This document shows positions 35,661 to 37,846 of a DNA stretch of 64,000 bases, in pieces. A model generated the notes under the pieces. The model was not told the DNA's origin, made no database searches, and was given only the letters and a program-made list of their open reading frames with translations. The stretch covers positions 2,205,001 through 2,269,000 of the forward strand of contig NZ_CP073587.1 of NCBI RefSeq assembly GCF_018223345.1. The letters are read 5' to 3'. The position numbers and the translations under genes were made by a program. Every line of letters begins with the position of its first letter. The first letter of the stretch is position 1. The stretch is from Shewanella yunxiaonensis. Lineage in GTDB: Bacteria; Pseudomonadota; Gammaproteobacteria; Enterobacterales; Shewanellaceae.

Positions 35661-37846
35661 GTCTGCATTTCATCCGGCCGGAATGGTTTATCACCCTGCT
35701 GCCACTAGCCTTGGGTTTATGGCTAAAACTGAAATACAGCGGCAGTCACTCTCAATGGAACAAATATATTGCGCCTCATCTCGCTGGCGTTTTAGTCAGC
35801 CACGCCCAGCAGCAACGTCGGCAATGGCTGCCACTGCTGGTCTTAAGCTGGTGTATCGCCATACTGGCGCTCAGCGGACCCGCACTGTATAAAAAATCAT
35901 TACCGGTATTTGCCTCGACCCAAGGCCGGGTAGTGCTGATGGATATGTCACTATCGATGTATGCCACCGATCTGTCACCAAACCGACTGACGCAGGCACG
36001 TTTTCGAGTCACGGACCTGCTTAAAGGACTCAAAGAGGGCGAAACGGGTTTGGTGGCCTATGCCGGTGATGCGTTTGTGATCAGCCCCCTCACCCGCGAC
36101 AGCAACACCTTACTGAATCTGTTACCGACACTCAGCCCCGATATCATGCCAGTGAGAGGCTCAAACCTGCCAGCTGCACTGACAAAAGCCAAAGAGTTAC
36201 TCAAACAAGGTGGCCATATTAAAGGCGACATTATTTTAGTCACCGATGGTGTAGCAACTGACCAACTCAACGAAGCCAAAGCGGCACTGCAAGATAGCCA
36301 ATATCGCTTGGTGATACTGGCGCTGGGATCAGCCCAAGGTGCACCAGTCCGTTTAAGTGATGGTCAGTTAATGCGGGATAGCAGCAATCAAGTAGTCGTG
36401 CCAACAACCAATTATGCCCAGCTAAACGAACTTGCCCAAAGTAGCCACGGCATGCTGATCCCATTTGCAAACGACGGCAGCGATCTTACTAAGTTACGCC
36501 AATGGCTGTCGAAAGACGAAAACGATGATGCCAAAGCGACCAACGTTGCCGGAGATGTGTGGATTGATTTGGGGCCATATTTATCGCTGTTGCTACTCAT
36601 CCCTTTACTAGCCGCATTCCGCTATGGTTTGCCCATGTGGCTGGTGGCACTGCCGCTCACTGGGCTGCTATTACCACCGCAGGCCCATGCCAGCAGTTGG
36701 GACAATCTTTGGCAAACAGCTGACCAACAAGGAATGCAGGCATTTAAACAACAGGATTTCAAAACCGCGGCAGGCAAATTTGCCAATCCGGCTTGGCAAG
36801 GCAGTGCTCTTTATCGTGCTGGCGATTATCAAGGCGCACTCAAGGCATTTGAGAAGGATAAAAGCGCAGATGGTTATTACAACCAGGGTAATGCTTTGAT
36901 GCAGATGGGTAATTATGAAGAAGCCATCAAGCGTTACGATAACGCACTGAAAAAAAATCCCAATTTAGAAAATGCAAAGGCCAATAAAAAATTGGCTGAA
37001 GAAAAAGAAAAGCAGGACAAGCAGGACAAGCAGGACAAGCAGGACAAGCAGGACAAGCAGGACAAGCAGGACAAGCAGGACAAGCAGGACAAGCAGGACA
37101 AGCAGGACAAGCAGGACAAGCAGGACAAGCAGGACAAGCAGGACAAGCAGGACAAGCAGGACAAGCAGGACAAGCAGGACAAGCAGGACAAGCAGGACAA
37201 GCAGGACAAGCAGGATCAGAATAAGTCTGGTCAGCAGCAAAACCAACAGTCAAATCCCCCTGAGGACCAAAAACCACAAGACAAGCAAAAAAATAGTGGT
37301 GACGATAACCAAGGCAGCGATAAACCGCAGTCAGGCGATAAACAGCAAAGCGCTAGTGAACAACAGCAAGGACAGAATAAGTCGTCACAAGCTCAGGATC
37401 CGGCGGATCAGCAAGGCAATTCTCGTGAGCAATCGGCTAAGTCACAGCCCACTGCTGATAAAAATGAGCAACAAAAGCAGGCTGGCGAAAAACAGTCGCC
37501 GCCGCAAGCTCAGCAAGGACAATCTTCATCGGGAGAGGATAAGCAGCAACCGTCGCCACAGATGCAAGCCGATGCCAGCCAGGGAAATAACGCCGACCAG
37601 GACGATAAACAGCAAGCTCAGGCAAGCACTGCCAAGCCAGCCGAAAACAACTCGCCGAAGCAGTCCCAAAATGGCACGGTGGCAGCATCATCCCTGGACG
37701 ATAAAGATAAACTGCCAGCTGATATGCAGCGGGCATTAAAAGCAGTTGTCGATGATCCAGCAGCACTGCTGCGTAATAAGATGCAACTCGAATATCAAAA
37801 ACGCCGCCAACGCGGTGAGACACCCAAGGAACAACAACAGTGGTAA
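35657..37846 (+). CDS. BatB/BatC-type vWA-TPR protein with long Gln-Asp-Lys repeat
   Basis: A 729-residue fusion. Membrane segments near 10-22 and 58-72 are followed by a vWA domain (metal site DMSLS at 96-100), two hydrophobic segments near 300-335, then TPR repeats (about 360-430: [43 protein letters not shown] in parts). Next comes a perfect (Gln-Asp-Lys)22 run at residues 453-518, then about 180 residues rich in Gln, Ser and Asp that should be disordered. The end has the conserved [15 protein letters not shown]. The repeat comes from 22 identical 9-nt units. Function in envelope protein handling is inferred from the operon. Confidence 0.9.
37013..37210 (+). repeat. 22 perfect tandem copies of a 9-bp unit (CAGGACAAG)
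   Basis: From 37013 to 37210 the unit CAGGACAAG repeats 22 times without a single mismatch, then ends in CAGGATCAG. Because the unit is three codons and has no stop in any of the six frames, all frames are open across it, and copy-number changes cannot shift the reading frame. Complete nucleotide identity points to recent or continuing expansion. Confidence 0.98.

Follow-up and report, generated by a model that had tools for sequence, protein, structure and literature searches.

The batB gene of Shewanella yunxiaonensis contains 22 exact, mismatch-free copies of the unit CAGGACAAG, and this array is probably an in-frame minisatellite in the tether of a fused BatB/BatC protein, with the junction of the TPR part and the tether serving as a mutational hot spot at which a wide range of lengths is tolerated. 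The array lies in a window of 64,000 nucleotides, which is the whole stretch of DNA that was analysed, and it is read in frame as (Gln-Asp-Lys)22 (Table 1). Both the 22 identical 9-bp repeats and the encoded tripeptide had been described in the initial annotation of this DNA, and both were confirmed; the maximal exact run of period 9 extends beyond the 22 copies on either side. Based on the codon usage of ten other genes in the window, and assuming codon independence, the probability that one codon set is used throughout (QDK)22 is about 1.6e-27.

The genome of S. yunxiaonensis consists of one contig of 3,812,587 bases. A scan of 1.264 Mb (33% of 3.81 Mb), composed of 60 segments of 20 kb in addition to the window, revealed no more than two exact arrays that reach 24 bp and 3 copies. 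One is the batB array, which is the longest exact tandem array in the scanned 33%. The runner-up of 125 bp, the sole other sizeable exact array in the scanned part (L247:11027, near position 1,535,027), contains a 39-bp unit in 3.2 exact copies and is directly preceded by a further 2.7 copies of this unit. Three tandem copies of CAGGACAAG have no second site in the whole S. yunxiaonensis genome; among 129 genomes of the genus they were found in two, S. yunxiaonensis and G025, both times within batB. At the conserved residues of the first 400 codons, third-position identity between these two genomes, which have the unit in common, is 43%, and the 22 copies are nevertheless identical. Therefore the expansion, or a homogenising turnover of the copies, postdates the split from G025, which upholds the earlier claim of recent or active expansion. 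A fodinae-like metagenome protein (P0003), for which a chimeric assembly is possible, carries one QDK where L011/G025 has about 11, with matching flanks. BatB proteins more than 68% identical over the full length were absent from the best 120 of 3076 matches. There is good support for recent slippage at a hot spot without loss of the reading frame.

The gene belongs to a cluster in which the MoxR, DUF58, DUF4381, BatA, batB and BatD genes are all located on the plus strand and adjoin or overlap each other. The original assignment to a Bat operon was borne out by the MoxR, DUF58, BatA and BatD neighbours, by the Pfam matches VWA_2 (5.6e-18) and TPR_2 (4.5e-12), and by the match of the protein to a solved structure, PDB 3ibs 'BatB' (E 8.9e-19); PDB 4jdu, 'aerotolerance-related membrane protein', also matches. 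The residues DMSLS in the von Willebrand A domain are taken here to be a MIDAS motif. All 129 genomes of the genus that were searched contain a relative of this gene, and a batB-batC fusion has been reported for Leptospira biflexa (PMC3557215).

Table 1. Features of the batB array, its host gene and the surrounding cluster (window positions).
Feature	Position	Strand	Residues or evidence
22 exact copies of CAGGACAAG, (Gln-Asp-Lys)22	37013..37210	+	residues 453-518
Maximal exact period-9 run, 206 bp, 22.9 copies	37010..37215	+	
BatB-type gene fused to TPR (BatC-like) part, 729 aa	35657..37846	+	ORF, VWA_2, TPR, PDB 3ibs/4jdu
von Willebrand A domain, residues 92-198	35930..36250	+	Pfam; MIDAS-like DMSLS at residue 96
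TPR motif, residues 404-436	36866..36964	+	Pfam
Tether, residues 468-686, pLDDT <50, contains most of array	37058..37714	+	AF2 model
Conserved C-terminal helices, residues 688-718	37718..37810	+	alignment and AF2 model
MoxR-type AAA ATPase, first gene of cluster	32235..33224	+	AAA_3, bpMoxR
DUF58 protein	33224..34165	+	Pfam
DUF4381 protein	34162..34680	+	Pfam
BatA-type VWA protein	34674..35660	+	Pfam
BatD-type protein, overlaps batB end	37840..39468	+	Pfam

An alignment of 58 BatB proteins (that of the window, 49 from the 129-genome set and 8 named relatives) indicated that the tail is closed by a conserved stretch, the final tryptophan of which is invariant in all 58. In the AF2 model the VWA and TPR parts are confident, the last TPR helix (438-468) enters about five repeats of the array, no structure is predicted from there to residue 686, and two helices follow (688-696 and 701-718, the latter confident). 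The alignment behind this model is gapped opposite the array, so that the model is weak evidence either way on array structure. With conserved parts on both flanks, the TPR and the C-terminal helix, the array lengthens the tether between them. The initial annotation had placed the array between the TPR part and a disordered tail; the position next to the TPR part stands, and the tail, rather than ending freely, is a tether of about 220 residues that leads to the conserved C-terminal helix. A hydropathy scan, at the cut-off used, detected two membrane segments only (60-78 and 303-321), and the AF2 model contains further helices at 8-28 and 326-338. The VWA domain of the Borrelia relative BB0173 was reported to be periplasmic (PMC5700661); for BatB we infer that the tether is probably on the periplasmic side of the membrane.

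Arrays are a recurrent feature of the BatB tail in the genus Shewanella. When exact arrays were counted from a minimum of 24 bp and 3 copies, tail arrays were detected in 22 of 129 genomes (85.6 kb of tail), and none was detected upstream of the tail in batB of the same 129 genomes (172.7 kb). When the tails of 129 species were codon-shuffled 20 times, arrays appeared in 0.4 species per shuffle on average and never in more than 1. The 35 tail arrays comprise 25 different units at the DNA level and 19 at the peptide level, counts that are uncorrected for species kinship, and the first array is located at most 60 residues from the end of the TPR match in 18 of the 22 array-bearing species. All 35 periods are multiples of three, in agreement with the frame-preserving unit length noted earlier for S. 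yunxiaonensis; 34 are multiples of nine and one is 15, and with the threshold lowered to two copies periods of 12 and 15 are also present (10 each). A hidden tripeptide period as the seed of the arrays received no support, as lag-3 identity in array-free tails is 0.126 vs 0.131 expected from composition. The predominance of nine-base periods without any lag-3 excess means that plain slippage in a low-complexity tail fails to explain the period.

The length and composition of these arrays vary widely between species. The longest measures 417 bp and consists of 46.3 copies of GACCAGAAG (L013), the second-longest measures 260 bp with 28.9 copies of a QQN unit, and the S. yunxiaonensis array ranks third. 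As the comparison of homologues proposed at the outset has now revealed, the number of copies at this position varies from species to species, with 0 copies in L010, 10.8 in L011 and 22.9 in S. yunxiaonensis; likewise, the peptide unit DQK is present in 46.3 copies in L013 vs 3.9 in L012, the DNA units of which differ at one third position. (QDK)n is also built from other codons, CAAGATAAG being repeated 9.2 times in L201, and QDK arrays thus originated in two codon versions, one in L009/L011 and the other in L201. The arrays of other species encode QQN, GQQ, QQQ and others, with no charge pattern in common. In 6 of the 129 genomes, 3 of them with arrays, a contig ends inside the tail, and array counts from draft genomes are therefore lower bounds. 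Two further batB matches, G046:C1:3290524-3291879 with an in-frame TGA and G085:C17:147833-149166 split over two frames, are either broken genes or sequencing errors.

As a repeat hot spot, this junction is shared by at least two genera. Among 227 genomes searched in the genus Vibrio, 222 had a match; from these, 30 loci, a non-random sample of the best matches to a V. cholerae protein, were fetched, and an exact array was present in 26 of them, with (CAGCAA)n at the TPR/tether junction in 25. The Vibrio unit at this place is of 6 bp, vs the nine-base periods of 34 of the 35 Shewanella arrays and the single period of 15. For 24 named loci outside the Shewanella group, tail arrays were present in 6 (four Vibrio, one Paraferrimonas and one Pseudoalteromonas) and absent in 18. 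A restriction of the Vibrio unit to batB was ruled out by the presence of (CAGCAA)4 in 3 of 30 genomes of Shewanella's family; the copy in G129 lies about 1.9 Mb from batB.

Locus L283, the protein of which is 98% identical to one named V. cholerae, carries 13 CAGCAA copies. The published primers for VCA0171 match on either side of this array, one with a single mismatch and the other perfectly; without the repeats the amplicon measures 268 nt, equal to the constant in the published copy formula, (X-268)/6 for the motif gctgtt (PMC6905556, PMC4703203). Judging by these matches, L283 is VCA0171, a published typing locus of V. cholerae. VCA0171 and the S. yunxiaonensis gene share the batB type and an in-frame exact array at the TPR/tether junction, whereas the unit is the 6-bp CAGCAA (poly-Gln) in the former and the 9-bp CAGGACAAG in the latter; copy number of VCA0171 varies among V. 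cholerae isolates, and the locus is used as an MLVA typing marker. In 66 seventh-pandemic isolates 19 alleles were reported, with 7-29 repeats in the table (PMC3438101), and 11 alleles were reported among household and water isolates from Dhaka in a study that typed 621 isolates (PMC5702050). This allele spread means that the length of the junction varies between close isolates in V. cholerae, and length variation among isolates of S. yunxiaonensis is predicted. A search of the open-access literature for VCA0171 together with 'tetratricopeptide' or 'aerotolerance' returned no paper.

In the mechanism proposed here, the array would be generated inside the flexible tether by replication slippage, which we infer, or by unequal recombination. 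In the tether, which connects the TPR domain to the conserved C-terminal helix, Gln, Ser, Asp, Glu, Ala, Asn and Lys are abundant; short units would therefore arise often, and only units that are multiples of three would be kept because the C-terminal helix must remain in frame. Each unit gained or lost would change the tether by three residues with zero net charge, and a change in copy number would presumably alter its reach. Wide length tolerance would leave the junction as a mutational hot spot in which old repeats are continually replaced by new ones.

The question of whether tail length is tolerated or tuned is addressed by the tails themselves. Among 123 complete tails the length ranges from 170 to 346 aa; the mean total length is 238 aa with an array (19 complete tails) vs 226 aa without (104 species; p = 0.21), and the part of the tail outside arrays is shorter in array-bearing species, 197 vs 226 aa (p = 8e-5, uncorrected for kinship). 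Arrays as pure additions to a tail of constant length received no support (slope 0.48). Partial replacement of the tail by arrays could reflect some limit on total length or the overwriting of older sequence. The length rheostat of the initial annotation, taken as a selected contingency locus in which the copies tune the reach of the TPR part or of the C-terminal helix and hypermutability itself is favoured, appears unlikely. It would account for the recurrence of arrays at the junction in 22/129 Shewanella genomes, 25/30 fetched Vibrio loci and 6/24 other named loci, for the tendency of VCA0171 repeats to increase with time in pandemic isolates (PMC3438101), and it has a parallel in E. coli, where tolA repeat number was reported to alter detergent, osmotic and phage phenotypes (PMC3477136). 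However, 107 of the 129 genomes of the genus lack an array by the criterion used, the span of tail lengths is wide, and Leptospira biflexa without all bat genes was reported to be unchanged in growth and in its oxidative-stress phenotype (PMC3557215). The role of Bat proteins is described in the same report as unsettled, and deletion of moxR in Riemerella was reported to alter stress resistance (PMC11834572); a measured phenotype of BatB length was not found in the literature searched. Tolerated length variation driven by mutation accounts for the same data and is most likely, rather than tuned length.

The remaining explanations concern what the repeat is rather than what its length does. That (QDK)n forms a stiff charged alpha-helix, a ruler extending the last TPR helix, is suggested by the continuation of this helix into the array in the AF2 model and by the i, i+4 spacing of Asp and Lys, but the same model is unstructured from residue 468 on, and arrays elsewhere share no charge pattern; this reading is rather improbable. 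An assembly artefact, with a real copy number or structure that differs from the sequence, is highly improbable: although contigs of other genomes end in the tail as described above, the S. yunxiaonensis assembly is a complete single contig, an array of 206 bp is within the span of long or 300-base reads, arrays are present at the same place in many separate assemblies, and Sanger and fragment-sizing counts of VCA0171 were reported to agree, with one mismatch over all loci (PMC6905556). A function of the repeat as DNA or RNA, for example through an antisense or alternative-frame product, is extremely improbable. Mechanical ORFs in other frames do cross the array, at 36972-37739 on the plus strand (Ser-Arg-Thr repeats) and at 36927-37277 on the minus strand (Pro-Ala-Cys repeats), neither with any sign of being a gene; yet in the BatB frame all units have lengths divisible by three, and since the units differ between species the alternative frames encode different things.

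A different type of variation was detected beside the arrays. Members of the S. algae group carry one or the other of two discrete alleles of the last TPR repeat plus proximal tether. When S. carassii (L046) is compared with S. indica/S. chilikensis (L045, L048), about 170 bp of batB (longer allele), at approximately nt 1249-1420 in the three loci, are clearly diverged, with identities of 60-65% in core windows and 71-79% in 100-base windows; in the rest of the operon most windows are 90-100% identical, with 84-95% near the batD end and lower values beyond. About 3,700-4,100 bases past the batB start, just outside the operon, the identity of S. carassii to the other two falls to 42-62%, which reflects either a difference in gene content or a gap that evolves fast. 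With species names as in the source, and among the 120 proteins listed, S. algae clusters have one allele in 10 cases and the other in 3, S. indica clusters in 5 and 3, and S. chilikensis clusters in 2 and 1. Within 2054 close pairs (at least 90% identity over residues 1-380), segment 417-449 is less than 75% identical in 21.2%, which is no rate because the pairs come mostly from one species group, and three control segments of the same length are so in 0.0, 0.0 and 0.4% of the pairs. The same type of exchange was found in the S. fodinae group, both between L010 and L011 and between the metagenome proteins P0001 and P0003. It is conceivable, but quite doubtful, that the BatB TPR/tether junction is a dedicated site of envelope diversification, kept variable by selection, that combines quick length change through slippage, of 9 bp in Shewanella or 6 bp in Vibrio, with the exchange of last-TPR-plus-tether alleles among strains and species, as in the S. 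algae group; if so, selection would probably come from some partner or attacker that changes over time and contacts this part of BatB.

Several known systems resemble the BatB array in part. TolA is membrane-anchored and its repeat domain is helical; the BatB array is helical in the AF2 model only up to residue 468, with pLDDT <50 after it, and the TolA family gave no match to the window BatB in Pfam. Like the BatB array, the repeat of E. coli tolA lies in frame in an envelope protein; it varies between strains and changes length without loss of the protein. Its units each have their own sequence, unlike those of S. yunxiaonensis, and phenotypes of tolA repeat number have been measured (PMC3477136). 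Borg repeats were reported to be perfect, recent, independently arisen and multiples of three in ORFs, as in BatB, and to give rise to disorder, frequently in proteins that are extracellular or membrane-bound; they are pervasive in huge archaeal extrachromosomal elements, whereas the BatB array is one chromosomal hot spot (PMC9879509). In gene order and domains the window cluster matches the Bat operon with its BatB proteins and BatB/BatC fusions, but the portions consulted of the Leptospira biflexa account describe no tandem-repeat tether (PMC3557215).

In-frame coding repeats as a kind, and the orthologous VCA0171 as a marker, are already known. As far as searched, the S. yunxiaonensis array, the hot spot across the genus, its nine-base period and VCA0171 as a BatB tether are new, and the exchangeable TPR alleles may be new as well. 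The best 10 of 200 papers from an open-access search contained nothing on the Shewanella BatB repeat locus. A cholera typing marker is thereby tied to a protein part, the BatB tether of the Bat operon, and the published VCA0171 counts, together with a natural range of 0 to 46 copies, constitute a ready experiment on tether length.

The repeats probably also affect how these proteins are recorded. Among the best 120 Vibrio-type database proteins none has more than 11 consecutive Gln, vs 41 in the genome locus L114, and for this reason long arrays were not assessed from the protein database. Among the matches listed, the clusters that bear the name V. fluvialis have 5, 7, 9 or 11 Gln, the two-step series that a 6-bp unit predicts. 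In the plasmid collection 93 records had BatB-like matches, none of which covered 80% of the query. The junction repeats probably explain the 'partial' Vibrio BatB annotations and the contig ends at the junction. The Vibrio BatB proteins annotated as 'partial', P0165, P0166, P0175, P0207 and others, end at the start of poly-Gln, and P0207 represents 378 member sequences.
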